From contig NZ_FMVQ01000012.1 in NCBI RefSeq assembly GCF_900102495.1, positions 1 to 64,000 on the forward strand: a stretch of DNA of 64,000 nt, read 5' to 3'. The notes under the pieces were generated by a model, which made no database searches, had not been told where the DNA came from, and saw only the letters and a program-made list of their open reading frames with translations. Positions 144 through 17,974 of the stretch are shown piece after piece. Origin of the DNA: Nitrosospira sp. Nl5. Lineage in GTDB: Bacteria > Pseudomonadota > Gammaproteobacteria > Burkholderiales > Nitrosomonadaceae. How positions within the stretch are numbered: the first letter of the stretch is position 1; each line of letters begins with the position of its first letter. The translations under genes and the position numbers were made by a program.

Positions 144-1034
144 TCACCCTCTCGCGCCATTCACGTACGCGGCAGTAAGGGCATGCGCGGGTGATTCAAA
201 AATTTGGCGGCAATGGCCAAATTCAACCAGGCGGCCGACATGGCCCTTGATCCAGAAAAATGCCGCATAGTTAGCGATGCGGCGCGCCTGCGCCAGATTA
301 TGGGTAACAATGACGATGGTATAATGTCCGCGCAATCGGCTGATCAGGTCCTCGACCACGCCCGAGGCGATGGGATCAAGTGCGCTGCATGGTTCGTCCA
401 TTAGCAGAATCTGAGGGTTCAACGCCAACGCGCGAGCAATGCAAAGCCGCTGCTGCTGGCCGCCTGACAGACCCAGCGCGGAAGCATTCAACCGATCGCG
501 CACTTCATCCCATAACCCGACATCTTGCAGCACTTGCTCGATAATGATGTCTGTGTCGGCGCGCCGCGTGATGCCATGCTCTTGCAAGGGCAGTTCGATA
601 TTGCGATGGATTGAAAGCGGGAACGGTGTGGGTTTCTGGAACACCATGCCAATCTGGCGTCGCAATGCCTGCACACTGACACCGGGACGGTGAATGTCTT
701 TGCCGCCGATGCGAACGCTGCCAGCGGTCCGGCAACCGGGAATCAGGTCAGTAAGCCGATTGATCGACGACAGGAAACTGGTCTTTCCACAGCCGGAAGG
801 ACCAATCAGGGCGGTGATGCAGCCACGATAAATATCCAGTGTAATGTTATCCAGCGCGGTCTTGGCACCGTAGCAAAGAGAGAAGTTCTCGACCTGGATC
901 AAAGGCTGCGGGTCACAACATGCCGGCCCCGCCTGTATTGGCCCAAGAGTATAAGTGTTGTTGTCCTGGTCCATTGATCGCACTGATTTCCCAGGCTCTG
1001 GCGTATTGGAACCGGAGCTCTTTTTTGGGTTCAT
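144..1034 (-). CDS. pstB: phosphate-type ABC transporter ATP-binding protein PstB
   Basis: Cytoplasmic ATPase that powers phosphate import through PstC/PstA. The 296-residue protein has Walker A GPSGCGKTS near residue 80, the signature LSGGQQQRLCIARAL near 190 and Walker B ILLMDEP near 210, followed by the switch histidine in VTHN. It carries about 45 extra N-terminal residues before the ABC domain (first motif LIQVENFSLCYG), so a later start is possible, although none is clearly better. The start overlaps the pstA stop by 4 bp, which suggests translational coupling. It is the last of nine minus-strand genes that begin with arsenic-modification enzymes, so the transported anion could be phosphate or arsenate. 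The family assignment is firm; the substrate is inferred. Confidence 0.9.
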   Translation of the reverse strand: MNPKKSSGSNTPEPGKSVRSMDQDNNTYTLGPIQAGPACCDPQPLIQVENFSLCYGAKTALDNITLDIYRGCITALIGPSGCGKTSFLSSINRLTDLIPGCRTAGSVRIGGKDIHRPGVSVQALRRQIGMVFQKPTPFPLSIHRNIELPLQEHGITRRADTDIIIEQVLQDVGLWDEVRDRLNASALGLSGGQQQRLCIARALALNPQILLMDEPCSALDPIASGVVEDLISRLRGHYTIVIVTHNLAQARRIANYAAFFWIKGHVGRLVEFGHCRQIFESPAHALTAAYVNGARG

Positions 1035-1900
1035 TCTGATACCATCTTTCTACGTTGCCAGCCGGCGGCAAGCCGCATGGCAACCACGTTGATGAGCAGC
1101 AGCGCAATTATCAGCACCAACGCCGATGCGTGAGCCGGGACGTCGCCACCGGAAACATTCATGGACAAATCGAAGATATGTACCGCCAGTGTGCGCCCTG
1201 AATCCAGCAGCGAATCTGGCATGCGGTCGACATAACCGCTAGTAAACAACAGCGCGGCGGTTTCCGCAATGGCGCGCCCGACTCCCAGTAGCAGACCCGC
1301 CGCCAGCGCCGGCGCGGCAGCTGGCAATAGCAAATGAAGCAACGTTGCTGTACGCGATATGCCCAACGCCGCGGCGGAGAGGCGATATGCATCGGGCACA
1401 GCGCGTAAACCCGCGTCCGCGGTACTGATGAGAATAGGCAAAAGCATGCAGGCCAGGGTGAGGCCGCCAGACAGGATGGAAAATCCCATACCCAGATAAA
1501 TGCTGAAAAAGGCATTGCCAAACAGGCCAAACACGATGGAAGGCACACCCGCAAGCACCTGTATGCTATAACGTACGGCGAGTCCAAAACTACTGTCAGC
1601 GGGTACGTATTCGGCAAGCAGCGCAGCCGTCGCCCATCCGAGCGGCAGCGCCACCATCAGGGCAACCGCCAGGATAAGGACAGTGGAAACCAGAACGGAG
1701 CCGATGCCGCCCGCACGGCCGGCATCCCGCGGCGAATCGACAAGAAAATCCCAGGAAAGATGCGCGATACCGCCGCGTACGAGATCACCCGCTATCCACA
1801 CAAACGTGGCGCAAACCAGAAACGCGACCGAGTAAACAGTCCATTCCACCAGCCGGTCTCGCCGGAAGTGTATTAATTTCCCCGGAACCGTTTCAGACAT
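1031..1900 (-). CDS. pstA: phosphate-type ABC transporter permease PstA
   Basis: Inner-membrane permease, one half of the PstCA channel. The protein has 289 residues with about six hydrophobic segments, the first near residues 18-40. The cytoplasmic coupling loop typical of this family lies around residues 175-220 (segment starting SAAALGISRTATL). The start overlaps the end of pstC by 8 bp and the stop overlaps pstB by 4 bp, so pstC, pstA and pstB are a tightly coupled unit. The usual family length is about 280-300 residues, so the gene looks intact. Confidence 0.9.
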   Translation of the reverse strand: MSETVPGKLIHFRRDRLVEWTVYSVAFLVCATFVWIAGDLVRGGIAHLSWDFLVDSPRDAGRAGGIGSVLVSTVLILAVALMVALPLGWATAALLAEYVPADSSFGLAVRYSIQVLAGVPSIVFGLFGNAFFSIYLGMGFSILSGGLTLACMLLPILISTADAGLRAVPDAYRLSAAALGISRTATLLHLLLPAAAPALAAGLLLGVGRAIAETAALLFTSGYVDRMPDSLLDSGRTLAVHIFDLSMNVSGGDVPAHASALVLIIALLLINVVAMRLAAGWQRRKMVSE

Positions 1901-2729
1901 GGCGGCTCCTCCCCAACCACCCCGCCATTCCCGAGAGGGCCATCACCAGCAGCATTAGCGTCAACCCTGATACGAACAGTGCGGCACGGTGATTATCCAT
2001 GGCATAGGCCATCTCCAGCGCGATGTTGGCAGCGAGGGTGCGCACCGGGTCGAACAGGCTGCCGGCATGCTGTACGACATTGCCTGTAACCATCAACACG
2101 GCCATGGTTTCGCCGATAGCGCGGCCTGCCGCGAGCATTACGCCTGCCACGATGCCGGTTTTTGCACTGGGCAAGGCCACGCCGCGAATGATGCCCCAAC
2201 GTGATATGCCCAACGCGGCCGCACCGCGCAGGTATTCACCAGGCACGCCCAGCAACGCCGCATGCGCGGTTAGCGCAATGGTGGGCAGGATCATTAGTGT
2301 CAGAATCAGGATTCCTGCCAGCAGACTGGCGCCGGGCGGGTGTAACTGATTAATTAGCGGCACCAGTGTGGTAAGTCCCCAAAAACCGAAGACTACGGAG
2401 GGAATGCCCGCCAGCAACTCAACCAGTCGCCGGTAAATGCCGGCAGTTCGGGGTGATGCGTAATAAGCGATAAACAGCGCCGAGGCGACGCCAAGCGGCG
2501 TCGCCAGCAGCAGCGCCCCGCTCGCGGCAGAGAGCGTCCCCGACAACATTGGCGCAAGGTTGTACATACCTTCAACGGGATGCCACGAAGGGTCGGTGAA
2601 AAAGCGCGCGAGCGATATATGCCGCAAGGCTGGCCATGACTCGAACGCCAGGAACAGGAGGATCAGCAGCACGACAGTCGCTGAAAGGCCTGCCGCAGTA
2701 CGCAGCAGGTAGTGCATGAGCGTATCCAT
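1893..2729 (-). CDS. pstC: phosphate-type ABC transporter permease PstC
   Basis: Inner-membrane permease that pairs with PstA. I place the start at the ATG at 2729 (MDTLMHYLL), 10 bp after the pstS stop. The open frame extends to 2807, but that part would overlap the pstS coding end and has no family-like sequence. From 2729 the protein has 278 residues with about six membrane segments and the permease loop around GISRWGII. It sits between pstS and pstA, in the usual pstSCA order. Confidence 0.9.
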   Translation of the reverse strand: MDTLMHYLLRTAAGLSATVVLLILLFLAFESWPALRHISLARFFTDPSWHPVEGMYNLAPMLSGTLSAASGALLLATPLGVASALFIAYYASPRTAGIYRRLVELLAGIPSVVFGFWGLTTLVPLINQLHPPGASLLAGILILTLMILPTIALTAHAALLGVPGEYLRGAAALGISRWGIIRGVALPSAKTGIVAGVMLAAGRAIGETMAVLMVTGNVVQHAGSLFDPVRTLAANIALEMAYAMDNHRAALFVSGLTLMLLVMALSGMAGWLGRSRHV

Positions 2730-2739
2730 GGATACTGTT

Positions 2740-3573
2740 TCAGCGGACGCTGATGGGGACGAAATATTGCGCTTTGACCAGATCATGCACCTGCTCCGAG
2801 CGAGCAAATTTGATGAAATCCCGGACCAATCCCTTCGGCATCCCCCGCGTTACCAAATTGAGCGGCCGTGACAGCGGAAATGTGCCGTTGCGCACACTCG
2901 CTACCGAAGCTGTGATGCTATCGAGCGGCAGCAGTTTGATGGGCGTGCCGTGCCCTGTTTCGTATTCGGCAGTGCCTATCGAAACGTAGCCGATGGCATT
3001 CGTGTTGCCGGCCACCGTCTTTATGCCCTGTACGTTGTCACCAATAATCACGTGCGGCCTGATATCGCTATTCTTCAATTTTAAATAACTCAGAAACAGC
3101 TCAAGTGTGGAGCGGCCTTCCGCTTTGTTGACGACAGTAATGCGCGCGTCTTGCCCACCCACATCCTTCCAGTTAACGATTTTGCCAGTATAAATGTCGA
3201 TGATCTGCTGCCGCCTTAGCGCCGCGATCGGGTTGCTCCCATGCAGAATAATTCCGACACCGTCCAGGGCGATCGCGTGCGCATGCAAACCCCGCTCTTC
3301 GGGTTTCAAAGCACGCGATACCATACCGATGTCGGCAACTCCATTGCGGACATCGTTAATGCCGCGTGCGGAACCACCAGTCTGCACATCTATCCGCGTG
3401 GCGGGATGCAACGACTCGAAGCGCCGGGCGAGCTCGCCGGCCAACGGAGCGATCGTGCTGGCGCCCGTTAAAACCAGTTTTTGTGAAGCCCCATGGCCGG
3501 ATGGACTCCAGCCGGATCCCAGCAATAAGGCTGTAGCAAACATCACGTAATGCGTTGCCGATAATATTTTCAC
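2740..3573 (-). CDS. pstS: periplasmic phosphate-type binding protein PstS
   Basis: Periplasmic solute-binding protein delivering phosphate, or an analogue such as arsenate, to PstCA. I choose the GTG at 3573, 5 bp after the upstream stop. It has a GAGG motif 8 nt away and gives a normal signal peptide (KILSATHYVMFATALLLG, then cleavage near GHGA). An ATG at 3597 would overlap the upstream gene by 20 bp. The mature part starts with LVLTGASTIAPL and contains GGSARGINDV, the anion-binding loops expected of the PBP-like family. About 277 residues, shorter than E. coli PstS and closer to the small PstS-like type. It is embedded in an arsenic-related cluster. Confidence 0.87.
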   Translation of the reverse strand: MKILSATHYVMFATALLLGSGWSPSGHGASQKLVLTGASTIAPLAGELARRFESLHPATRIDVQTGGSARGINDVRNGVADIGMVSRALKPEERGLHAHAIALDGVGIILHGSNPIAALRRQQIIDIYTGKIVNWKDVGGQDARITVVNKAEGRSTLELFLSYLKLKNSDIRPHVIIGDNVQGIKTVAGNTNAIGYVSIGTAEYETGHGTPIKLLPLDSITASVASVRNGTFPLSRPLNLVTRGMPKGLVRDFIKFARSEQVHDLVKAQYFVPISVR

Positions 3574-3577
3574 GCTC

Positions 3578-5716
3578 TTAGCCTCGCCGCCAGGCATGAT
3601 ATTTTTCCACCCAGTCAAGCAGGCGATATGGCACATGTGCGCGTCGCCATTCACCTGCAGCATATTTATTCGCTTCCGACCAAGTGGGATAGGTATGGAT
3701 GGTGCCGAGTATCTTGTTCAGGCCAAGCCCATGTTTCATTGCCAGCACGAATTCCGCCAGCAGGTCGCTGGCATGCTCGCCAACGATCGTCACACCCAGA
3801 ATGCGGTCTTTACCCGGTACGGTGAGCACTTTGACGAAGCCGCGTGCTGCTTCATCAGTCATGGCGCGGTCCAGATCCTCCAGTCCGTAGCGTGTCACCT
3901 CGCAGGAGATGCCCCGCTTCTTTGCTTCATCTTCCGATAATCCGACCCGGGCAACTTCGGGGCTGGTAAACGTGGCCCAGGGAATCACCGAATAGTCCAC
4001 TTTGAAGCGCTTCACGACGCCAAACAGCGCGTTGACCGACGCGTACCAGCCCTGATGCCCGGCAACGTGGGTAAACTGGTATGGTCCAGTTACGTCGCCG
4101 CAGGCATAAATATTGGGATACAATGTTTGCAGCCAGTCATCCGTTTCGATAGTGCGTTTTGGCGAAATGCGGACTCCCAATTCCTCCAGGCCAAAACCTT
4201 CGATCCGGGCTGTTCTTCCCACCGCGCACAACATGGCGTCGAACGGAAGCGCTTCTTCGATTCCGTCTTCGCCGCGCACAATCAAACGTTGCTTACCGGA
4301 TTCGCGTTCACAGCGTATGGCGCCGGTTTGCGTCAGCACACGCACGCCATCGGCGCGCAGCGCAGCTTCAACCAATTTCACCGCATCGGCATCCTCTCGC
4401 CCCATCAATCCTGTTCTCGCCACTTGCGTAACCTGACAGCCAAGACACGCAAATGCCTGCGCCAGCTCGCAGCCAATGGGCCCGCCACCCAGCACAACGA
4501 GCCGTTCGGGACGTTCAGTAAGCGACCAGATAGTGTCGGACGTATAGTAGCGCACCTGCTCCAGTCCCGGAATCGGCGGAATGGTGGGAGAGGCACCGGT
4601 GGCTATGACAATCGCGCGGGTGGTCATGGTCTGCCCGTTGACTTCCACCGTCCAGGGTGAGGTAATGCGGGCATTACCATGAATCACCTCCACCCCTAGC
4701 TTTGTGTAGCGTTCCTCCGAGTCGTGGGGCGCAACCGCGCTTATGATTCGATGCACACGTGCCATCACATCACTGAAATTGTAATCCACGGTTGCGCGGG
4801 TGATGCCCAATTCCGGGGCATGACGCACCTGCCGCAGGAAAGCCGCCGAACGGATCAGGGTCTTGGAGGGCACGCAACCGAAATTGAGACAATCCCCGCC
4901 CATCTTGTGGCCTTCGATCAAAGTTACCTTGGCGCGAGTGCTAGCCGCTATATAGGATGTCATCAGGCCCGCCGCGCCGGCGCCAATCACCACGAGATTG
5001 CGGTCGAACCGCCTCGGCCTGGACGAACCGGCCCAATGTCCCTGGGCTCTCCTCACCTTGATGCGCTCCAATCCCCACCGTGCCAACCACGGAAATGCAG
5101 CCAGTAGAACAAACGATCCGATCAGCGACGGCGATAGAATGCCGGACAGGCTGGTAAGTGCCGCTAACTGGGTCCCGGCATTGACATAAACCACGGTGCC
5201 GGCGAGCATGCCTGACAGGCTGACCCAAAAGAAGGTGCTGGTCCGGATGGCGGTGAGTCCCATCAGCAGATTGATGACGAAAAAAGGAAAAACCGGCACC
5301 AGGCGCAGGGTGAAGAGATAAAATGCACCGTCACGCTCAATGCCGGCATTGAGCGCCGCCATACGGTCGCCGAAGCGCTGATGTACGACATCACGAAACA
5401 AGTAGCGCGCCGTCCAGAAAGCCACGGTTGCGCCGATAGTGGCGGAGATAAGCGCCGCCGGAATACCCGCCCATAGCCCGAAGATAGCCCCGCCGGCTAA
5501 CGTCATCAGTGTCGCACCCGGCAAGGAAAGCGAAGTGATGACAATATAAATCGCGGCATAGAGGCCAATGCTTCGCACTGGCCGCGTCTGATAGGCTTGT
5601 TGCAGTGCGTCTCGGCTGTTCTTGAGCATTTCGAGACTGAGGAAACGTCCAAGATCGAAGGTAAAGAACAATCCGGCCAATAGCACCAGCAATATGAGCA
5701 ACCACCAATGTCTCAT
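3578..5716 (-). CDS. TVP38/TMEM64 membrane domain fused to a pyridine nucleotide-disulfide oxidoreductase
   Basis: A two-part protein of about 712 residues. Residues 1-220 form a TVP38/TMEM64 (SNARE-associated, DedA-like) membrane domain with several hydrophobic helices. From about residue 235 follows a flavoprotein of the dihydrolipoamide dehydrogenase/mercuric reductase family: FAD motif VVIGAGAAGL, redox-active pair GGDCLNFGCVPSKT, NAD motif LVVLGGGPIGCELA, second FAD motif YACGDVTG, and the C-terminal HTYPTWSE with the His-Glu pair of the dimer interface. It lacks the N-terminal HMA domain and C-terminal Cys pair of MerA, so mercury reduction is doubtful. I start at the ATG at 5716, just before the first helix; a GTG at 5773 is possible. 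Its substrate is unknown; the neighbours suggest an arsenic-related redox role. Confidence 0.82.
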   Translation of the reverse strand: MRHWWLLILLVLLAGLFFTFDLGRFLSLEMLKNSRDALQQAYQTRPVRSIGLYAAIYIVITSLSLPGATLMTLAGGAIFGLWAGIPAALISATIGATVAFWTARYLFRDVVHQRFGDRMAALNAGIERDGAFYLFTLRLVPVFPFFVINLLMGLTAIRTSTFFWVSLSGMLAGTVVYVNAGTQLAALTSLSGILSPSLIGSFVLLAAFPWLARWGLERIKVRRAQGHWAGSSRPRRFDRNLVVIGAGAAGLMTSYIAASTRAKVTLIEGHKMGGDCLNFGCVPSKTLIRSAAFLRQVRHAPELGITRATVDYNFSDVMARVHRIISAVAPHDSEERYTKLGVEVIHGNARITSPWTVEVNGQTMTTRAIVIATGASPTIPPIPGLEQVRYYTSDTIWSLTERPERLVVLGGGPIGCELAQAFACLGCQVTQVARTGLMGREDADAVKLVEAALRADGVRVLTQTGAIRCERESGKQRLIVRGEDGIEEALPFDAMLCAVGRTARIEGFGLEELGVRISPKRTIETDDWLQTLYPNIYACGDVTGPYQFTHVAGHQGWYASVNALFGVVKRFKVDYSVIPWATFTSPEVARVGLSEDEAKKRGISCEVTRYGLEDLDRAMTDEAARGFVKVLTVPGKDRILGVTIVGEHASDLLAEFVLAMKHGLGLNKILGTIHTYPTWSEANKYAAGEWRRAHVPYRLLDWVEKYHAWRRG

Positions 5717-5811
5717 CTCGGATTCGTATAAAAAATCAGAATTTGCGGGCGATGCCAAAGAATCCTTGAACACGTTCCTCGGGAGAAAGCAATGCTATCC
5801 AATCATGCGCT

Positions 5812-6759
5812 TCATTTTGTCGGCTTTATTTCGCTGCAGGTAGCGCCATACTTGAAGCAACTGTAACAACGGTGATGCTTCATACTCACGAATGCCTGCA
5901 AGGCTTCGGTAAGCGTTTCTCCAAGGATGTAATCCGGATCATCATCCACGAGGGTACACGCGTAGACCTGCATGCGGCCGCCGCTTTTTGCCACCATTTT
6001 GCTAAATGCGCACATAAAGGAGCGGCGCGTCTCCTCGGTCTGAAAGTCGGTCATACAGCGTTTGGTAATGCGGGGCGTTGGCACCTGCACCCCGGGGAGG
6101 TGGAATTCGGGGAATTCGACACGGGGCAGGTCCTGGGGTAAGCCGGCAGCGCGGAAAACTTCGGCAAAACGCGCTTCGACCACATCCGGCATGACGTCAG
6201 CCAGGAGTTGATTCGCCACCGACACGTGGAATCCCATGTCATGCAACCTCCGCAACCCTTCCAGTGCCTGGGCAAACATGCCTTCGCCGCGCCCGGCGTC
6301 ATGCCGTGCGGCATCGGGATAATCCAGGCTGACGCGAAAGCTCAGCGCCTGCGGCCGGTCACGTAATGAGTCCAACTGTCTCAGGCGCTTCATGAGCGGT
6401 TTGGTTGCATTGGTCAGCACCAGGGAAGGTCGGTGCAGTAACGCATAATCGAGGATACGCACGATGTCCTTGTTGATGAAAGGTTCGCCGCCAGTAAACG
6501 AAAATTGCTTGACGCCGAGACTGAGCGCTTCCTCCATCAGCGGCTGAGCGTCGTCAAATCGCAACATTTGCAAGCGATCATCTCCAGGTTTCGAACCTTC
6601 GAGACAGAAAGGACAGGCAAGGTTGCAGGCGGTGCCGGTGTGAAACCACAGCTCGTCCAACGCATGCGGCTGGATAAAACCGCCCGGTTCATCGTCCGGG
6701 GTATGACGCCAGTGTTGGGAGCGGTTTAGCTTTTCTACACTGATCGGAATCACCTTCAT
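5812..6759 (-). CDS. radical SAM protein of the arsenic cluster
   Basis: A radical SAM enzyme of 315 residues. The cluster-binding motif is CNLACPFC (Cys45, Cys49, Cys52), followed by a GGEP-type SAM-binding motif (FTGGEPF). The C-terminal third has extra cysteines (KRCMTD, SFMCAF, VYACTLV, HRCYSCFKYGATC) that could bind an auxiliary iron-sulfur cluster, as in SPASM-type proteins. I use the ATG at 6759, 4 bp after the arsM-like stop; the longer open frame overlaps that gene and has no radical SAM sequence. Arsenosugar clusters usually carry ArsS, but the first motif and flanks here do not look like ArsS, so I give no symbol. The reaction is unknown; radical chemistry on a methylated arsenical is an inference from context. 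Confidence 0.85.
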   Translation of the reverse strand: MKVIPISVEKLNRSQHWRHTPDDEPGGFIQPHALDELWFHTGTACNLACPFCLEGSKPGDDRLQMLRFDDAQPLMEEALSLGVKQFSFTGGEPFINKDIVRILDYALLHRPSLVLTNATKPLMKRLRQLDSLRDRPQALSFRVSLDYPDAARHDAGRGEGMFAQALEGLRRLHDMGFHVSVANQLLADVMPDVVEARFAEVFRAAGLPQDLPRVEFPEFHLPGVQVPTPRITKRCMTDFQTEETRRSFMCAFSKMVAKSGGRMQVYACTLVDDDPDYILGETLTEALQAFVSMKHHRCYSCFKYGATCSEIKPTK

Positions 6760-6763
6760 GGGG

Positions 6764-7819
6764 CTAGCAACATCCACCTGTACGATTGTCCGCGGTGTCG
6801 CTGGCGGTGTCGTTATATGGTAGTCCCATGCCGCAGCCGGCGAAAATCCCGTAGTGCCGCTCGAAGTTGCCGTAGAACGTAAAATGCGCCGCGAAGCGGG
6901 TATCGTGCAACATGCGCCAAGTGTTGCCACACACGGGGAAATGCTTTCCGGTTTCGATGCGGTGATGCTTGTCGAGTTCAAACAGGTGGGGATGATTGGG
7001 TATCGTGCCGCGATAAACCACGGACTGGCCGTAGTCCTCGCAGGCTGGCTCCAGATTATCCAGTTTGAACAACCGGTAGGTAGCGGAGTAGAAACGGATA
7101 TTCCCGGTACGGACTGCCAGTTCCGCGTTTCCAATAGTAATTCTGCGGTCGGCGATCAGGCGCGGATCGGCAAAACCATGTTTACGAGAAAGCTGCTGGA
7201 AATCATTCCAGTAGAGCGCGCCGCTGAGGCATTCACCATATAGTACCGAGTCCCCAGTGAGCGCGACCGGCACGCGCCGGTCGGTATAGACATCGGAAAA
7301 ATACAGCTCCCCGCCCGGCTTGAGGACACGCCAGGCTTCGCTTAATACAGCCGCTTTGTCCGGGACAAGGTTGAGCACGCAATTGGATACGATGACATCC
7401 ACGCTGTTGTCGGCCAGGTCGAGCTCGTCCATGCGCTCAATGTAGCCATGCAAAAAAAGTACATTAGCGGCGGCATGGCCAAATGCCTTGCGATGATATT
7501 CCTCATGCCGGCGTGCGACCGCGAGTTGTTCTTCGGTCATGTCCACACCGATTACCCTTCCATACTCCCCCACCAGTTTGGATATCACGTAAACGTCGCG
7601 TCCTGCCCCGCAGCCCAGATCGAGCACGGTCAAGCCTTCCAGCAATTCGGGCAGCACCAGTCCGCAACCGTAGTAGCGAGTCAACACCTCATTGTGTATC
7701 TGCGCCAATATCGGCTTCACATATTCTGGCAAGCCCGCGTCAGTCTTGCAGGCATTGGTCTGAAGATCGAGCGAACTGCTCAGGGTTCCGCCATAGTATT
7801 GCTGGACAGTATCATGCAT
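6764..7819 (-). CDS. arsM: ArsM-like arsenite methyltransferase
   Basis: SAM-dependent methyltransferase of 351 residues, best explained as an arsenite methyltransferase. It has the SAM-binding motif VLDLGCGAGRD near residue 66 and GVDMTEEQL near 91. Four cysteines (Cys24, Cys52, Cys147, Cys197) keep the 28- and 50-residue spacings of the known ArsM pairs (44/72 and 174/224 in the Cyanidioschyzon enzyme, from memory). The YGECLSGALYW segment is typical of the family. The long C-terminal part contains PVCGNTW and ends in Gly-Gly-Cys-Cys, which may bind more arsenic. It lies 21 bp after the glycosyltransferase gene and 4 bp before the radical SAM gene. Confidence 0.85.
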   Translation of the reverse strand: MHDTVQQYYGGTLSSSLDLQTNACKTDAGLPEYVKPILAQIHNEVLTRYYGCGLVLPELLEGLTVLDLGCGAGRDVYVISKLVGEYGRVIGVDMTEEQLAVARRHEEYHRKAFGHAAANVLFLHGYIERMDELDLADNSVDVIVSNCVLNLVPDKAAVLSEAWRVLKPGGELYFSDVYTDRRVPVALTGDSVLYGECLSGALYWNDFQQLSRKHGFADPRLIADRRITIGNAELAVRTGNIRFYSATYRLFKLDNLEPACEDYGQSVVYRGTIPNHPHLFELDKHHRIETGKHFPVCGNTWRMLHDTRFAAHFTFYGNFERHYGIFAGCGMGLPYNDTASDTADNRTGGCC

Positions 7820-7840
7820 GGTATCGCCTCGTGATGAAAA

Positions 7841-8527
7841 TCAGTTGGTTTTAGAGTAGTAGCGAGCCGCGAGTTTGTCAGGCGGGACACCGCGTGCAAA
7901 AGCCAGCGCGAGGTTGCGGTTTATCCAAGTACGCCGCCACCAGCCATCGCGATGCCAGCGCCGTGGATCGACGAAAAGCGGTTCGTGTAAAGCCAGAAAT
8001 CGTCCTTGGCGGCGCAGTCCGCGCACCAGGGATACCTCCTCGAACAAGGACAAGGGTGAATGGCCGCCGGCCGCGACATAAGCCTGATGCGTCATGAATA
8101 ACCCCTGGTCGCCATAGGGAACGCCAAACCGGCAGCGAAGTGCGATGGCTGATTCCAGCAGCAATGCTGGCCAGGCGCGCGGAGCATCAAAACAAAAACG
8201 GAAATAGCCGCCTACCGCACCTCGCTCGATAGCCAACCGCATTGCGGTTATCGGATCCGGCGGCAAGCGGGAATCGGCATGCAAAAACCATAGAGCGTCA
8301 CCTTGCGCCAACGCTGCCCCGGCTAGTAGCTGCCTTCCCCGGCAAGGCTCGCCAGCCAGCCAGCGAGCACTATGCCGATGGCAGATGTCGCGGCACGCCT
8401 GGTTGTCAGCTCCATCCACCACGACGACCTCCGCCGGTCGAAGCGGCAGGTTTCGCAATTGATCGAGCAAATTCGCCAACCTCGCTTCATCGTGGTAGCA
8501 GGGGATGATGACACTAAAACTAGACAT
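7841..8527 (-). CDS. TIGR04283-type arsenosugar biosynthesis glycosyltransferase
   Basis: Family 2 glycosyltransferase of 228 residues. It starts with SVIIPCYHDEARL and has the nucleotide-sugar-binding VVVVDGAD segment and the metal-binding LWFLHADSRLP (an HxD in place of DxD). A PYGDQGLFM motif follows near residue 140. This pattern matches the TIGR04283 family, first defined by its association with radical SAM/selenodomain proteins and later named after arsenosugar biosynthesis. The start overlaps the end of the neighbouring TIGR04282-type gene by 8 bp, so the two are coupled. The sugar donor and acceptor cannot be read from the sequence. Confidence 0.83.
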   Translation of the reverse strand: MSSFSVIIPCYHDEARLANLLDQLRNLPLRPAEVVVVDGADNQACRDICHRHSARWLAGEPCRGRQLLAGAALAQGDALWFLHADSRLPPDPITAMRLAIERGAVGGYFRFCFDAPRAWPALLLESAIALRCRFGVPYGDQGLFMTHQAYVAAGGHSPLSLFEEVSLVRGLRRQGRFLALHEPLFVDPRRWHRDGWWRRTWINRNLALAFARGVPPDKLAARYYSKTN

Positions 8528-9212
8528 GATCCGCTTGCCGTAATTGAACGAGGTCGCAAGCCAGCGCGTGCAATGCGCGCCGCGCCGGGCGGCGGTCCGC
8601 CCTCAGGGCTGCGGACAACCGAAAGAAGTCATCCCGTTCGTCCACATCGAAACTCTGGGTCAGCATGGCGACGGACTGCCCGATCGCACGGCAACAGTCG
8701 GCAAGCGCAGCACCCAGACGGGCAGTGCTCCATGGCAACGCGCCCAGCATCGGCCACTGGCGGCAGCTGGCCATCAGCACCACGCCGCCATCCTCCGCCG
8801 GGATCAGGACGGTATCATGGCGCAGCAAGGCGTCATTCACTGCGTCATAGTCAGCTGCCGCGAGAGCAGGTGCATCACTGCCGATGTAAACCAGCCGTTT
8901 CATCCCCGCGTCGCGCAACGCCTGATCCAGCCCATTCAACCGTAGCCCCAGATTGCCCGCCGTTGCTTGCGGCAGTATTCGCACTTTCGGCTGCAACTGC
9001 GGTAAAAGAGTGCCGGCCCAGGCACAATCCGAAGGATGCGCCGGAGCGATTACCACTGGGCCGGGCCATTCGCATGCATCTTCCAGCGCACAGGCGAGCA
9101 GCGCCTCGGCGATGCGAGTTGCGATTTCCGGCCCCAGGGTAGCGGCTAACCGCTGCTTGCCGATACCCGATGACGGGCGCTTGCATACTAATACCAAGGC
9201 GGTCTCAATCAT
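8520..9212 (-). CDS. TIGR04282-type arsenosugar biosynthesis glycosyltransferase
   Basis: A nucleotidyl/glycosyltransferase-like protein of 230 residues with the GT-A-like fold signature of the TIGR04282 family (formerly rSAM/selenodomain-associated transferase 1). Visible marks are the N-terminal KRPSSGIGKQRLA segment, the central VYIGSDAPAL metal-site motif and the EDGGVVLMA segment. It is the first gene of the minus-strand cluster, with an 8-bp overlap into the TIGR04283-type gene. The pair commonly occurs together with ArsM. Its exact reaction is not established by sequence alone. Confidence 0.82.
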   Translation of the reverse strand: MIETALVLVCKRPSSGIGKQRLAATLGPEIATRIAEALLACALEDACEWPGPVVIAPAHPSDCAWAGTLLPQLQPKVRILPQATAGNLGLRLNGLDQALRDAGMKRLVYIGSDAPALAAADYDAVNDALLRHDTVLIPAEDGGVVLMASCRQWPMLGALPWSTARLGAALADCCRAIGQSVAMLTQSFDVDERDDFFRLSAALRADRRPARRALHALACDLVQLRQADHV

Positions 9213-9607
9213 GCCGTGCCTGTTGACTTAGCATATGTAAAACCTGCTTGACGGGAAGCACAAAATCTCATAACGCTTCGTTGCAATGACCTGATCATCT
9301 TCGAAACCGTGAAACCATATCGGATCACAGTAATAAAACCCGGGGAACGCTATTTCTTTACATCATAGACAGCATTTGTTCGTGAAGCACGGAAATTTTC
9401 GTTAAAACCTGAATCGCCCACCAACTGAATGGGGGAAATACCCGGCTTTTAAGATGCAGGATGTAGACCGGATGAAAGCCGGTATTTTAGGGGGGAGCAC
9501 GATTGAATTGATCTCGGCGGCCGCCGAGGTGACAGAATGGAGTTGTGTATCGTTCGACCGAGGAGCTACAACGGGTTTCAGCTTTGGCTGAATGGCAGCA
9601 AAGAGTT
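9213..9607. other. intergenic region between the asparagine-synthase-like gene and the arsenic cluster
   Basis: 395 bp with no convincing gene. A short open frame at 9402-9650 runs into the end of the next coding region and looks like a shadow. The stretch should hold the promoter of the arsenic cluster near 9212-9350, but I cannot identify confident -35/-10, ArsR or Pho sites. It also contains the inverted repeat at 9437-9487. Confidence 0.5.
9437..9487. terminator. large imperfect inverted repeat, candidate transcription boundary
   Basis: AATACCCGGCTTT at 9437-9449 pairs with AAAGCCGGTATTT at 9475-9487 with one bulged base and a 25-nt loop. It lies about 120 bp after the stop of the asparagine-synthase-like gene and about 225 bp before the arsenic cluster start, so it may end the exopolysaccharide transcript. 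The loop is long for a simple terminator and the T run is short, so the function is not certain. Confidence 0.4.
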
Positions 9608-11446
9608 CTACCGCTGCCTGTACCACTGCTCCAGCATCATTAGCACCCAAACCATGGTGCCATGGTAACCCGCATGTTCCCCCAGATGATGCCCAAGTAG
9701 CTTGTCAATAAAGTCGCCACGTATGATATTTCGCGACCTGAGGTCACTCAGACTATCCGAAGCCAGGGTCTGCAACGGTTTGTGATGCTGAAGCCATACG
9801 CCAAAAGGCAAGCCGAAGCCGTGTTTTTGCTTGGCAATAATCTCTTCCGGCAGAAACCCGCGCAACGCTTCCTTAAAGAAATAACGTAATTTTGTGCCTT
9901 TAAGCTTAAGCCGGGGTTCAAGCCGCAAGGAAAAAGCCACGATCTCATCGCTGATAAGGGGAAAAGCGACGTCCATTCCTGCCAACTCACAAGCTTTTGC
10001 CACTTTGGGCAAGTCGTTATCGGCAAGCGTAAATTTACGATCAAATGCAAGCATGCGGTTTATCAGGCTGCCGGCATCGGCCTGGTGATAGACTTCATCC
10101 AGGAGGGCAGCGGGATGACCGGCATTAACAGTCATCAGGAACTCCCGAGTGAAAACCTCTCCATGGCCGTAACGCTCCAGCAGATTATAGGTTTCGGTAC
10201 GCGCGGGCATCGCGATTGATGCCTGTTCGATATAACTGCGGGCCTTGCTTATCAAGGGCAAGGAAGCGCCGCCAGGAATGCCAAAAACCAGCGGCTCGAT
10301 AATACCTTTACGCATTACGGAGGGCATGTGCTCATAAAGAGAGAACAGGTGTTGCTTGGCGTAGCGTACGTTGCCGCCGAATAACTCGTCTCCCCCATCT
10401 CCACCCAGCATCCTGCTCAGGCCATCCGCTTTCGCCATGCGCGCGCAATAGAAAGCAGGTATGGCGGAAGCGTTCCCAAAAGGCTGATCGAAAATTGCTG
10501 CGACCTGGGGAATCGCAGAGACTATGTCATCGGGACTAACATAGTATTCATGATGCCGGGTAGAAAAATGCCGCGCCGCAATGCGCGCGTATTCCATTTC
10601 GTCATAACCCGAGGCATCGAAACCGATGGAGTAGGTACGGGCTGGCTGCCCACTTACCTCTCCCAATAGTCCCGCTATCGTCGAGCTGTCGGTTCCGCCG
10701 CTGAGAAAAGCGCCAACCTCCTCGCCTCCGATTGCTTCCCGCACGCTTGAATGCAATACATCCAGAAAATCGTGCTTAAGTTCCGGGAAGGAACGCACCT
10801 CGTGTTCCACGAATCGCATTTCCCAATATCTGCGGGTCTCCGCACGTCCCCTCCGATAGATCAAGTATTCGCCAGGCAGAAGACGTTTCTGGCCCTGATA
10901 AATCGTATCCGGGCCGGGCACCATATGAAAATAGACATAGTTGTATAAGCTCTGCGGGGCGATCTCGGGCCTTGTCCGCGGGTGCAAAATGATGGCATCG
11001 GCCGATGAGCCAAAAACGAGACCCTCTCCCGATATCTGAAAGGAAAGCGGGTGAATGCCCATACGGTCAATTGCCAAAATGGCCTCATTGCTCCCTTCAT
11101 CCAGAATGCAAAGGGAAAATGCACCGGTCAGGTTCGCGAAGATTTTCTCACCGCTCTCCCGCCAGTGGTCGGCCAGCGTTTTTGCCACGCCTTCTGCCCG
11201 CGCAAGCTGGGACAGGCGAGGCTCCCTAAAGCCGGCTCGCCCCCACAGCGCCACGAGCAACCCATCTTTTTGATAAAAATGTCTGCTATCGTCATTTGCC
11301 GAAATCGCCAAGGCACTGTTCCATCCAGCCAGCGACTGAATCTCGCCACCATCAAAACGAGCAAGCGGTCCAGCCATGCGTTGGACAAGCTGCAAATTCT
11401 CGGGGACGGAAGTGCCCACGCCTATCCATCCGCACAAACCGCTCAA
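9608..11446 (-). CDS. asparagine-synthase-like amidotransferase of the XrtA cluster
   Basis: Two-domain protein of about 612 residues. The N-terminal part is a class II glutamine amidotransferase-like domain; the C-terminal part is an ATP-pyrophosphatase synthetase with PP-loop GAFLSGGTDSS near residue 250 and GDGGDELFGG near 345. It resembles exosortase-A-associated asparagine synthase relatives thought to modify exopolysaccharide precursors. The frame opens with TTG at 11446 (AAGGAG 5 nt upstream), giving an N-terminus of Ser-Gly-Leu-Cys-Gly. A second TTG at 11437 would place the cysteine at position 2, as glutaminase activity requires. A nine-codon leader ORF ends on the first TTG. It is the last gene of the cluster. 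Confidence 0.83.
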   Translation of the reverse strand: MSGLCGWIGVGTSVPENLQLVQRMAGPLARFDGGEIQSLAGWNSALAISANDDSRHFYQKDGLLVALWGRAGFREPRLSQLARAEGVAKTLADHWRESGEKIFANLTGAFSLCILDEGSNEAILAIDRMGIHPLSFQISGEGLVFGSSADAIILHPRTRPEIAPQSLYNYVYFHMVPGPDTIYQGQKRLLPGEYLIYRRGRAETRRYWEMRFVEHEVRSFPELKHDFLDVLHSSVREAIGGEEVGAFLSGGTDSSTIAGLLGEVSGQPARTYSIGFDASGYDEMEYARIAARHFSTRHHEYYVSPDDIVSAIPQVAAIFDQPFGNASAIPAFYCARMAKADGLSRMLGGDGGDELFGGNVRYAKQHLFSLYEHMPSVMRKGIIEPLVFGIPGGASLPLISKARSYIEQASIAMPARTETYNLLERYGHGEVFTREFLMTVNAGHPAALLDEVYHQADAGSLINRMLAFDRKFTLADNDLPKVAKACELAGMDVAFPLISDEIVAFSLRLEPRLKLKGTKLRYFFKEALRGFLPEEIIAKQKHGFGLPFGVWLQHHKPLQTLASDSLSDLRSRNIIRGDFIDKLLGHHLGEHAGYHGTMVWVLMMLEQWYRQR

Positions 11447-11566
11447 AACAGCTCCTTCGTTTTACCAGACATGAATATCCTATTATTTTTGCCAAATAAC
11501 TATCTGACCCAAATGCATGGCCCTGGGATGCGCATGGGCAGCACCAGTAAACGGATGTTCCGTTTA

Positions 11567-12802
11567 CTAAACCAGCACTTCAATGGGGGGAGGATGACTG
11601 AGGAATGCGGTCGGGCTCGCCGTGAAGCCGTAGGCGCCGGACTGAAAGACAACTATCAAGTCCCCCGCCTCGGCCTTGCTCATTTCCATCTGGTCTGCCA
11701 GCAGATCCAGCGGAGTGCAGAGCGGCCCCACTACCGAAACAATTTCCCTGTCGTTGCCATGGACCTTGTTACCGACAACGACAGGATAATTTTTACGGAT
11801 TACCTGGCCAAAATTTCCGGAAGCGGCGAGATGATGATGCAGGCCGCCATCCGTCACCAGGAACACCTGCCCCCTCGACTTCTTACGCTCCAGCACCCGG
11901 CACACATAGATCCCGGCCTCAGCTATCAAATACCGGCCAAGTTCGATTACCAACCGCGCCTCGGGGAGTTCCCGCTTTGCTTCAGGTAACAGGCGCTGCA
12001 AGTTTTGACCCACAGCTGCCATATCCAAAGCCTCGTCACCTGGAAAATAAGGAACTCCGAAGCCGCCGCCGATATTCAGCAAGCGAACCGCGCCAGGTGC
12101 ATAGCGAGCAAGGGAGATGCCAAGTCGCAGCGTTTTTTCATGGGACTCCTGGATGGCCGCTACCTTCAGGTTCTGAGAACCGCTGAAGATGTGGAATCCC
12201 TCAAAATCGAGTCCCAGTTTACCGATCCGGTTAAGCATGGCGGGAACGCGCTCGGCATCCACCCCAAACTGCTTTGGTCCTCCGCCCATTTTCATGCCGG
12301 AGGATTTGAGCTCGAAATCAGGGTTGACTCTAACCGCCACTTTCGGACGGATGCCAAGGTGAGTACCCAGACTGGCGATACGTTCCATTTCCTGCTCGGA
12401 TTCCATGTTCAGGACAATCCCGGCGGCAATTGCGCAGGAGAGTTCATCATCGCCTTTTCCCGGCCCGGCGAAGCTGACCAGTCCCGCGGGCATTGGCGTG
12501 TCGAGGGCAATCCTCATTTCGCCTCCTGACGCCACATCGATTCCATCCACCAAGCCGGACAGGTGCTGCACGACCGCAGGCATCGGATTCGCTTTCATGG
12601 CATAGTGAAGGTGGACCTCGGTTGGCAGATGCTGGCGCAGAAAGGCAACCCGCTCGGTTATCTGCTGCCGGTCGTATGCATAGAACGGTGTTCTGCCTAC
12701 CCGTTGCGCCAGTCGCATGAGGGACAAACCGCCAATCTGGAGGCAGTTGTCCTGAATCGGAAATTGAATCATGGAAGCATGCTTGGGGCGTGTATTGCTC
12801 AT
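11567..12802 (-). CDS. PLP-dependent decarboxylase, exosortase A system-associated (TIGR03099 type)
   Basis: Fold-type III PLP enzyme related to diaminopimelate/ornithine decarboxylases, 411 residues. The PLP lysine is in HYAMKANP near residue 70; the glycine-rich phosphate-binding segment is LNIGGGFGVPY near 240, and the C-terminal catalytic tyrosine is in FQSGAYGF. The adjoining ligase gene and the PrsK/PrsR genes identify it as the TIGR03099 type. The start overlaps the ligase gene by 4 bp (ATGA). It probably makes an amine precursor for an exopolysaccharide or lipid-linked product; the substrate is unknown. Confidence 0.88.
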   Translation of the reverse strand: MSNTRPKHASMIQFPIQDNCLQIGGLSLMRLAQRVGRTPFYAYDRQQITERVAFLRQHLPTEVHLHYAMKANPMPAVVQHLSGLVDGIDVASGGEMRIALDTPMPAGLVSFAGPGKGDDELSCAIAAGIVLNMESEQEMERIASLGTHLGIRPKVAVRVNPDFELKSSGMKMGGGPKQFGVDAERVPAMLNRIGKLGLDFEGFHIFSGSQNLKVAAIQESHEKTLRLGISLARYAPGAVRLLNIGGGFGVPYFPGDEALDMAAVGQNLQRLLPEAKRELPEARLVIELGRYLIAEAGIYVCRVLERKKSRGQVFLVTDGGLHHHLAASGNFGQVIRKNYPVVVGNKVHGNDREIVSVVGPLCTPLDLLADQMEMSKAEAGDLIVVFQSGAYGFTASPTAFLSHPPPIEVLV

Positions 12803-14385
12803 GCGCTCCCTTCCGGGAAGGTATTTTGCAACTCCTGGGCGAGCAGTTTACGGTCAATCTTGCCATTGGGATTGCGCGGCAAATTGCCTTCCCTGAACTC
12901 GATCCGGCTGGGCAGCATGAAAGCCGGGAGATGGAGCTTGCATGCTGCCAGCAATGCATCATGATCAACCCTCGCGCATTCCCGCGGCGTTACGATCACG
13001 ACGATGGCCTGACCCAATACCGGATGAGGTATTCCGATGGCGGCGGCTTCTCCCACCAGTGCCGTGGCATAAATCACTTCTTCGACTTCGGTGGGACTGA
13101 CACGATAACCCGATGTCTTGATCATTTCATCGCGGCGGCCGATAAAATACAGGAAGCCTTCTTCATCCATGCGCACCGTATCCCCCGACCACACCGCCAT
13201 TTCCGGTATGGTTAACCCGGGCTGGCGGGAAGGAACGGGTTTAAAACGTTCCGCCGTTTTTTCCCGGTCATTCCAGTACCCCATGGAAACCAGCGCCCCG
13301 CGATGCACCAGCTCTCCCGGCTCGCCGACTGCGCAGAGTGAGCCATCTTCCCGCAACACCAGCACTTCGGCATTGGGGATGGCCTTGCCTATGGAGTCAG
13401 GGCGGTCGTTCACTTGCTCCGGTGGTAAAAAGGTCGAGCGAAACGCTTCGGTGAGACCATACATCAGAAATATCCTGGTGTTGGAAAATGTACTGCGCAG
13501 CAAATCGAGAGTCGCCCGAGGCATTGCCCCACCGGAATTTGTAATATAACGCAATGAAATATTTCCTGGCCATTTCAACTGCGCCAGTTGAATCCACAGG
13601 GGAGGCACAGCGGCAAGACCGGTAATGCTCTCCTTCTCCACGGTATCGATGATATCCCGCGGCAGCAGATAATTCATCAGGACGCCCGTGGCCCCAACAT
13701 GAAAGGCCGTGGTAAGTTGGCTGAGTCCGTAGTCAAAACTCAGCGGCAATACCGACAAAATCCGGTCATCGGGTCTGTTTTCCAAGTATTGCGCAACGCT
13801 TGTCGCTCCCGCGACCAGGTTGCGGTGGGAAAGGACCACGCCCTTTGGCTTCCCGGTGCTGCCGGATGTGTACAGGATCGCGGCCATATCGCTGTCGATA
13901 CTATGGTGCGCGGTGACGCGTTCCCTCTTGGAAAGGGCGTTGTCCCAACTGATGACATTCAGGCCGGAAATGACCGGCAGAGTCTCAGCCGGGTTGACCA
14001 CCATCACCGTATGCAGATCATGGCACTGCGGCAGAACCGCTATCAGTAATTTCAACCGGTCGGCTGAAGTCACCAAGATCCTAACATTGCAATCGCGCAA
14101 AATATAGGCCACTTGTTCTGACTTGAGAATAGGATTGACAGGTACGAACACGCCCCCGGCGGTTGTGGCGCCAAACAGGGCTGTAACCGCCTCCGCCCGC
14201 TTTTCCAGATAAACCGCGACGCGCTCACTCCGGTCAAGCCCTAAAGCAAGCATGGCCGTCCCTACTGACTCGATCTCCTCCGCCAAGGCAGCGTAGGAGA
14301 TTCGATTTCCCTGATACACCAACGCGTCCTTGTCTGAAAAACGATCAGCGGAGGTGAAAATGAGCTTATGAATAAGATCTGACAC
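12799..14385 (-). CDS. acyl-CoA ligase (AMP-forming), exosortase A system-associated (TIGR03098 type)
   Basis: Adenylate-forming enzyme of 528 residues. It has the P-loop YTSGSTGKPKG near residue 175, the A5-like MYGLTEA near 310, the A7 segment WSGDTVRMDEEG near 400 and the C-terminal lysine motif PRNPNGKIDR. It activates a carboxylic or amino acid as an adenylate for transfer to a thiol. The 4-bp overlap with the downstream decarboxylase gene and its position after prsR place it in the XrtA exopolysaccharide set. No acyl carrier protein gene is visible nearby. Confidence 0.88.
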   Translation of the reverse strand: MSDLIHKLIFTSADRFSDKDALVYQGNRISYAALAEEIESVGTAMLALGLDRSERVAVYLEKRAEAVTALFGATTAGGVFVPVNPILKSEQVAYILRDCNVRILVTSADRLKLLIAVLPQCHDLHTVMVVNPAETLPVISGLNVISWDNALSKRERVTAHHSIDSDMAAILYTSGSTGKPKGVVLSHRNLVAGATSVAQYLENRPDDRILSVLPLSFDYGLSQLTTAFHVGATGVLMNYLLPRDIIDTVEKESITGLAAVPPLWIQLAQLKWPGNISLRYITNSGGAMPRATLDLLRSTFSNTRIFLMYGLTEAFRSTFLPPEQVNDRPDSIGKAIPNAEVLVLREDGSLCAVGEPGELVHRGALVSMGYWNDREKTAERFKPVPSRQPGLTIPEMAVWSGDTVRMDEEGFLYFIGRRDEMIKTSGYRVSPTEVEEVIYATALVGEAAAIGIPHPVLGQAIVVIVTPRECARVDHDALLAACKLHLPAFMLPSRIEFREGNLPRNPNGKIDRKLLAQELQNTFPEGSA

Positions 14386-14443
14386 GAAATACTACCTATT
14401 AAATAGTCATCAGGGATGAATAAGCCGGTCGCCGGAAAGCATC

Positions 14444-15802: not shown

Positions 15803-15867
15803 TCCCTTTTCTTGGCTTACTTGGATATGGATTAATCCGGATTAACTTAGCCTGAACGATTTCAACC

Positions 15868-17952: not shown

Positions 17953-17974
17953 GGCGTGCGGCAGCGCCCGGAGG

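Follow-up and report, generated by a model that had tools for sequence, protein, structure and literature searches.

A candidate organoarsenical operon joined to a second, divergent pstSCAB in Nitrosospira sp. Nl5

The window analyzed here comprises the first 64 kb of a 96,930-bp contig (NZ_FMVQ01000012.1) from the 3.03-Mb genome of Nitrosospira sp. Nl5 (labelled G000), and it carries nine minus-strand genes that run from position 9212 down to 144 in the order GT82-GT83-ArsM-radical S-adenosylmethionine (SAM) enzyme-TVP38/FAD-PstS-PstC-PstA-PstB. In our preferred reading, to which we assign a probability of about 0.45, this run would be one organoarsenical-synthesis operon that took up a dedicated, arsenic-associated PstSCAB importer, the latter securing phosphate when arsenate competes. 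What we observe directly is the gene order, its conservation, the family membership of the products, and the recurrent linkage of this Pst to arsenic genes. The reading is further supported by a canonical PstB kept elsewhere in the genome, by a promoter-like element upstream of the first gene only, and by the precedent of arsenic islands in which pst1 stands beside a distant pst2 and pstS1 is under ArsR control (PMC3834237; PMC7533571, in the parts of both available).

As for the proposed pathway, the cysteines and family of ArsM argue strongly that it methylates As(III); the radical SAM enzyme, which occupies the position of ArsS, is the likely source of a second carbon group on the methylated arsenic; next, GT83 and GT82 would activate a sugar-type group or attach it; and TVP38/FAD would contribute redox or membrane functions. 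The Pst proteins, presumably made together with the arsenic enzymes, would allow phosphate uptake to continue while arsenate competes at the general transporters. Both the substrate of the importer and the product of the pathway are putative.

The nine-gene run and its enzymes

An earlier note, made from the letters of this DNA, had described nine minus-strand genes with a complete pstSCAB, tightly spaced and with a largest gap of about 95 bp; all nine were found at that place and on that strand, and the spacing agrees with ours, which ranges from an 8-bp overlap to a 95-bp gap and depends on the likely starts (ATG 6759 for the radical SAM gene, ATG 5716 for TVP38/FAD, GTG 3573 for PstS, and ATG 2729 for PstC). 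GT82 (8520–9212) overlaps GT83 (7841–8527) by 8 bp, ArsM (6764–7819) follows after 21 bp, and the radical SAM gene (5812–6759) after a further 4 bp; the gap before TVP38/FAD (3578–5716) is 95 bp, or 38 bp with the alternative start GTG 5773. PstS (2740–3573) follows after 4 bp and PstC (1893–2729) after 10 bp, and the PstC/PstA (1031–1900) and PstA/PstB (144–1034) overlaps measure 8 bp and 4 bp, respectively. Because the contig terminates 143 bp beyond pstB, the downstream content of this locus is unseen; in eight named relatives with longer contigs, pstB is the last gene, followed by a gap and seemingly unrelated open reading frames (ORFs) as read by eye, and no phoU was recognized after it by the same visual reading, made without a profile search.

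The 18-bp promoter-like element, ATGCTGTCTATGATGTAA, contains a −10-like TATGAT and lies on the minus strand at 9358–9375, with ∼146 bp between it and the first gene downstream. It precedes GT82 in 14 of the 15 Nitrosospira-type loci (the exception being L021), matches once in the window against 0.03 matches expected, and is the sole match in the genome at two or fewer mismatches, with four others at three mismatches. Moreover, the motif was not found before pstS, and we infer that the nine genes are co-transcribed as one operon. In L023, L024, L026, and L027, ∼200 bp separate TVP38/FAD from pstS, so that a second promoter is possible there. One simple PhoB-box pattern, sought in 15 loci over the 250 bp preceding GT82, had no match.

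The ArsM-type product, an As(III) SAM methyltransferase, aligns almost end to end with solved arsenite methyltransferases (E 5e-106), and its residues C24, C52, C147, and C197, which are conserved without exception in an alignment of 18 sequences, correspond to C44, C72, C174, and C224 of the algal ArsM 4kw7, which we take to be the arsenic-binding cysteines. It scores under the NCBIfam cut-offs, both for PRK11873, its best-scoring family (177.2 versus 263), and for AsSugarArsM (88.6 versus 400). GT83 is a TIGR04283-family glycosyltransferase (193.7 bits, cut-off 182), and GT82, a CofC-like nucleotidyl/glycosyl transferase, passes the cut-off of PF09837 and has TIGR04282 as its best family, yet below the cut-off (101.8 versus 134). 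TVP38/FAD joins a TVP38/VTT membrane domain (VTT_dom) to a flavin adenine dinucleotide (FAD) disulfide oxidoreductase resembling MerA and lipoamide dehydrogenase (Pyr_redox_2, Pyr_redox_dim). The earlier note had placed all these families in arsenosugar clusters, which holds for ArsM, TIGR04283, the TIGR04282-like protein, and TVP38/FAD, but not for the radical SAM enzyme. A published AS3MT/ArsM tree (PMC5398495, available in part) already includes a sequence from Nitrosospira briensis.

The radical SAM enzyme (PF04055), which has a Cys-rich C terminus, was considered as ArsS and rejected: it scores 44 bits with TIGR04167 against a cut-off of 300, shares 23% identity over 155 positions with a true ArsS, and lacks the C-terminal DUF3641, which scores 181 bits in the ArsS of G018 (L141). 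Its best NCBIfam model is the Rv1681 family (108 versus a cut-off of 380), and no dedicated model for it was found in NCBIfam or Pfam as searched. Its CX3CX2C motif and six further C-terminal cysteines are invariant in 27 of 27 aligned sequences. The predicted structure (predicted local distance difference test, pLDDT, 63) is reliable in its core only; a fold search with this partly reliable model placed BlsE, SkfB, and MoaA on top, which marks the fold as SPASM/MoaA-like, and we draw no function from it. Among 29 further ArsM loci, eight carry ArsS (L271, L273, L275, L276, L285, L286, L287, and L292), four carry the window-type radical SAM gene (L270, L282, L290, and L291), and none carries both. 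Judged by sequence, the window-type enzyme is a separate subfamily occupying the place of ArsS in the cluster, and the pair is best described as a non-orthologous replacement. Since the enzyme is not ArsS, an arsenosugar is a candidate end product but not an established one.

Relatives of these enzymes also occur in other settings. In four Marinobacterium-type and Oceanospirillaceae loci (L113, L120, L123, and L127), the radical SAM gene has GT82 and a distant GT83 (31–35%) as its neighbours, with no ArsM match in the stretch; these genomes may encode ArsM at another site, or the enzymes may act on a different substrate. A DUF3047-type protein is encoded between ArsM and GT82 in two ArsS-type, pst-bearing clusters (L141:5712-6455 and L262:11680-12417), and DUF547-type proteins recur at L139, L141, L182, and L267, both being uncharacterized parts of arsenosugar-type clusters.

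A divergent Pst, its conservation and its arsenic linkage

PstC and PstA exceed their NCBIfam cut-offs (TIGR02138, 243.3 versus 196.5 bits; TIGR00974, 222.6 versus 193.5), whereas PstB and PstS fall under theirs (TIGR00972, 329.8 versus 343.2; TIGR02136, 163.7 versus 206.6), though these are their best-scoring families. A canonical PstB of 385.8 bits is encoded elsewhere in the genome (G000:C14:38594-39337); canonical copies score 384–389 bits in 22 of the 23 genomes of the genus (the exception, G002, is 80% complete), and the cluster copies in the genus score 321–336. The cluster pst is a second, divergent set beside the canonical Pst. Its PstS reads KAEGRST where, in the alignment, the solved PstS proteins 4gd5 and 4q8r have an RxxGSGT-type motif, presumably the phosphate contact. 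None of 19 aligned sequences departs from this pocket motif; KAEGRST or KADGRST stands in 30 of 34 PstS rows, the rest being three KAEGHST and one KAAGHST, and the two other PstS-like proteins of the window genome read GAGADSGT. An AlphaFold model of PstS (pLDDT 50) was too poor and was not used.

The radical SAM gene (at least 66% identity) is present in 15 of the 23 genus genomes and in 12 genomes of the sister genus (Nitrosomonas-type). The order from GT82 to TVP38/FAD is intact in all 15 Nitrosospira-type loci bearing it, and pst follows in all 14 that could be evaluated (13 complete and one cut by a contig end); in the sister genus, pst occurs in 3 of 13 loci from the 12 genomes. Another set of 80 named radical SAM loci, drawn partly from the same genomes, contains GT83 in 70, GT82 in 68, ArsM in 65, and TVP38/FAD in 51 by ORF clusters; here a locus was evaluable for pst if it held pst or if its contig ran on for 1.2 kb or more, and cluster-type Pst stands in all eight evaluable Nitrosospira/Nitrosovibrio loci (of nine). 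Furthermore, in G018, a genome of the same genus without the window-type enzyme, this Pst family is joined to a canonical ArsS cluster (TIGR04167, 456 bits). The gene-order search that the earlier note had proposed found the run conserved in Nitrosospira-type loci and the linkage recurring elsewhere, and the linkage of cluster and pst is real, though not obligatory. Because pst is present in all evaluable Nitrosospira loci and is patchy or absent elsewhere, the enzymes form the old core to which pst was added, stably so in Nitrosospira. The N. halophila locus L106 was rejected as an independent association: its pst is canonical (83–85% to the canonical G000 genes), divergent from GT82, and possibly there by chance.

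Outside the family, loci were collected by PstS-only searches in which neighbours were ignored. A class sample of 369 genomes gave 14 PstS hits at 1e-60 (12 outside the family), a phylum sample of 398 genomes gave nine (seven outside), and plasmids gave three hits above 50% identity, all cyanobacterial, among the 25 listed of 53. In raw counts, 12 of these 22 loci lie near ArsM, ArsS, or ArsR, seven near none, and three (G274, G138, and G701) are in stretches too short to judge, so that the co-occurrence of pst with arsenic genes, noted earlier for this locus, recurs in 12 of 19 evaluable ones. ArsM is near pstS in six: it lies directly before it in G534, G716, G591, and G807, is 2.9 kb away with ArsR between in G810, and is part of the order TVP38/FAD-ArsM-ArsC-PstSCAB in G342, where the ArsC-like protein encoded between ArsM and pstS has CX5R and a second Cys pair and reaches 73 bits where the cut-off is 174. 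A full ArsS cluster adjoins the same Pst family in G534. ArsR lies directly upstream of pstS in G386 (whose contig ends 0.4 kb past ArsR), G401, G201, G333 (where ArsR is cut by the contig end), Nostoc pNe_5, and Pseudanabaena pPg_02, two of these six arrangements being on cyanobacterial plasmids; on pPg_02, arsS, arsM, TVP38 genes, and mercuric reductase lie ∼4–10 kb from ArsR-pstS. In L230, L233, and L252, ArsR directly precedes pstS with no ArsM match in at least 9 kb on both sides, and in L228 and L232, the ArsR preceding pstS is at a contig end. The seven pst-linked ArsR proteins are related to one another: all have a C-terminal Cys-Cys pair, the six that reach the region also have an N-terminal Cys, and the six full-length ones pass the cut-off of NF033788.

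On the PstS tree, the ArsM-linked rows are clustered (only 5 of 500 shuffles were as low). Moreover, ArsS is over the cut-off in 10 of the 12 outside-family class genomes with PstS (G201 and G386 counting as without it) versus 179 of 369 (p 0.014), a genome-level co-occurrence that is suggestive but weak. Because this PstS family is often preceded by ArsR or ArsM in other bacteria, a phosphate importer geared to arsenic stress is suggested.

Several neighbouring features were also recorded. On the Nostoc plasmid, the annotation places an IS630 transposase between pstS and pstA (L252:15096-16094), and as only part of pstC matches behind it, pstC may be broken there. An OvoA-type gene and a PatB-type C-S lyase gene are near the arsenic cluster in 14 of the 80 loci (representatives profile-scanned), lying divergently upstream in 13 Nitrosomonas-type loci (L066, L069, L072, L074, L076, L077, L078, L085, L090, L091, L096, L105, and L108) and downstream of the cluster in the Methylotenera locus L082; an ovothiol-type thiol may be functionally linked to trivalent-arsenic chemistry. 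In the window itself, 9608–19363 on the same strand encodes an asparagine-synthase-like amidotransferase, a sigma-54 response regulator, a histidine kinase, a bacterial sugar transferase, and two further products that, on visual reading of their ORFs, look like a decarboxylase and an acyl-CoA-ligase-like protein. This region resembles an XrtA/PEP-CTERM exopolysaccharide region, and its amidotransferase, decarboxylase, and acyl-CoA-ligase-like genes precede the cluster, wholly or in part, in most Nitrosospira-type loci.

Possible roles of the importer: protective phosphate uptake versus arsenate entry

Between protective phosphate uptake and arsenate uptake that feeds the pathway, we regard the latter as the weaker reading and as somewhat unlikely. 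PstSCAB would here take up arsenate, along with phosphate, as a substrate, which a cellular reductase would reduce on the way to glycosylated or lipid-like organoarsenicals, serving as phosphate-sparing compounds or as weapons. The gene order in G342, the ArsM genes adjoining or near pstS in five other genomes, and the excess of ArsS among genomes with this PstS speak for such a supply, as do the ArsS clusters that some genomes with ArsR-pst, such as G401, carry at another site, and a genome search of G000 that returned no Acr3 or ArsB match; it has also been proposed, in the available part of the paper, that the Pst1 of arsenic islands brings As(V) into the cell and that arsenolipids lower the need for phosphate (PMC7533571). 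ArsM, however, uses As(III), and the Nitrosospira operon contains no arsenate reductase, while the ArsC of G342 stays well below its cut-off. Further, Pst stands behind ArsR without a nearby ArsM in L230, L233, and L252, where arsenate brought in on arsenic induction could be toxic; this arrangement favours phosphate supply under arsenic stress over arsenate uptake, an argument weakened by the ArsS cluster elsewhere in G401 and a weaker ArsS match in G201, two of these three genomes. A wider proposal, that the ArsR-/ArsM-pstSCAB family of Pseudomonadota and cyanobacteria is a dedicated arsenate importer for organoarsenic synthesis, feeding, in the ammonia oxidizers, a pathway in which a new carbon-arsenic-bond-forming radical SAM enzyme replaces ArsS, is in our judgment unlikely; if it were true, arsenic would be taken up and used, beyond mere expulsion.

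Candidates for reduction and efflux were examined separately. The PF01451 and PF03960 matches in G000 are indistinguishable from housekeeping phosphatase or ArsC-like proteins, and an ArsC-like ORF in L237 (4325–4681, read by eye, ∼5 kb from pstS) was not counted as a link. Within the genus, only two genomes, the cluster-free G012 and G017, have Acr3 over the cut-off; full-length ArsB is present in the cluster-bearing G001, G011, and G014 and the cluster-free G008, and only pieces of it in G003, G004, and G015. Mutual exclusion of efflux and cluster is unproven, intact efflux being present in 3 of 16 cluster-bearing genomes (which include the ArsS-type G018) versus 3 of 7 cluster-free ones (one-sided p 0.24).

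Several observations weigh against phosphate protection itself. PstS departs from the RxxGSGT-type phosphate motif, so that even its binding of phosphate is putative, and the Nitrosospira operon has neither ArsR nor ArsC. Seven of the outside-family loci (G181, G136, G306, G418, G152, G643, and Gloeothece) have no searched arsenic gene near pstS; conversely, in the class sample, where some stretches were short, neither the 29 further ArsM loci nor 40 high-scoring ArsS loci (from the 179 genomes over the cut-off) show this Pst in the part read, and arsenic linkage of any kind is unclustered on the PstS tree. Among the 80 named radical SAM loci, Pst accompanies 9 of 38 evaluable Nitrosomonas-type or unassigned loci (of 47), two of these nine (L056 and L065) looking broken, none of four evaluable Methylophilaceae loci (of six), and none of 16 evaluable others (of 18), which are mostly gammaproteobacterial; an unlinked Pst copy is present in two Nitrosomonas-type genomes (L139 and L140). 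This patchiness and these unlinked copies would also suit a secondary phosphate transporter inserted by the cluster and kept via a shared promoter, with no arsenic function, and so would the varying position of pst, which follows TVP38/FAD in some loci, stands between the radical SAM gene and TVP38/FAD in L042 and L085, and comes directly after the radical SAM gene in L093 and L094. Such a coincidence is nevertheless very unlikely in our view, because loci found by PstS similarity alone so often (12 of 19) have ArsM, ArsS, or ArsR nearby.

We give still less credence to the idea that the importer brings in a different arsenic oxyanion or an organoarsenical (methylarsenate, dimethylarsenate, or an excreted product) that is then modified further. 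The invariant PstS pocket, unlike that of solved PstS, is consistent with this idea, as is the C-terminal Cys pair of the linked ArsR proteins, which is like that of the methylarsenite-only sensor SpArsR (PMC11868830, available in part); but the motif is also found in loci without arsenic genes, and the third, N-terminal Cys of ArsR could form an As(III) site. In cultured ammonia-oxidizing bacteria, a phosphate-type importer is here linked with genes for the probable building of carbon-arsenic compounds, not with arsenic oxidation or efflux. With an arsenic-linked Pst, phosphate protection versus deliberate arsenate entry becomes a testable question, and the locus exposes a second radical SAM family replacing ArsS in arsenic clusters.

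Comparison with known arsenic systems

Pst in arsenic islands is already known (PMC3834237; PMC3954881); these and the other papers of this section are cited from the parts of their text available. In arsenite-oxidase arsenic islands, pst1/phn1 stand beside arsenic genes and pst2 is distant (PMC3834237), and ArsR control of pstS1 has been reported in Agrobacterium 5A (PMC3834237; PMC7533571). By gene context alone, the present locus is like these aio-type islands, with a second pstSCAB by arsenic genes and the other pst elsewhere (PMC3834237). There, however, pst accompanies aioBA and ars efflux operons, whereas here its neighbours are ArsM, GT82/GT83, and a radical SAM enzyme; a search of 52 Pst or cluster loci, in which the positive controls were recovered, turned up no relative of Acr3 or ArsB (AioA was not searched for). 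A community quantitative PCR study found arsM and pstS rising together (PMC13006510), and pstSCAB has been listed as an arsenate-uptake gene (PMC12343739), neither source addressing physical linkage in its available part. Among the matches listed from the literature searched, which did not extend to subscription journals, we found no report of pst joined to ArsM or arsenosugar clusters.

Radical SAM formation of carbon-arsenic bonds is known from arsenosugar synthesis, in which ArsS adenosylates arsenic (PMC12159101), and from arsinothricin synthesis by ArsL (PMC8552651). As in the arsinothricin cluster arsQML, ArsM here adjoins a radical SAM gene, the window enzyme and ArsL being likened by description only; the genes named there, arsQ, arsM, and arsL, do not include the transferases or pst of the present run (PMC8552651). 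The arsRMC genes of Arsenicibacter rosenii have counterparts in the ArsM and ArsC of L226 and L276 and in the ArsM and ArsR of L265, and no Pst is mentioned with them in the available part of that paper, whose AfArsR and methylarsenite sensor SpArsR the cysteines of the pst-linked ArsR proteins recall (PMC11868830). With the arsenosugar clusters, the run shares ArsM, the TIGR04282/TIGR04283 transferases, and TVP38/FAD in one series, and it differs from them in that its radical SAM enzyme is not ArsS (TIGR04167); the ArsS clusters of G018 and G534 are nevertheless of the same kind and have the same Pst family as the window.

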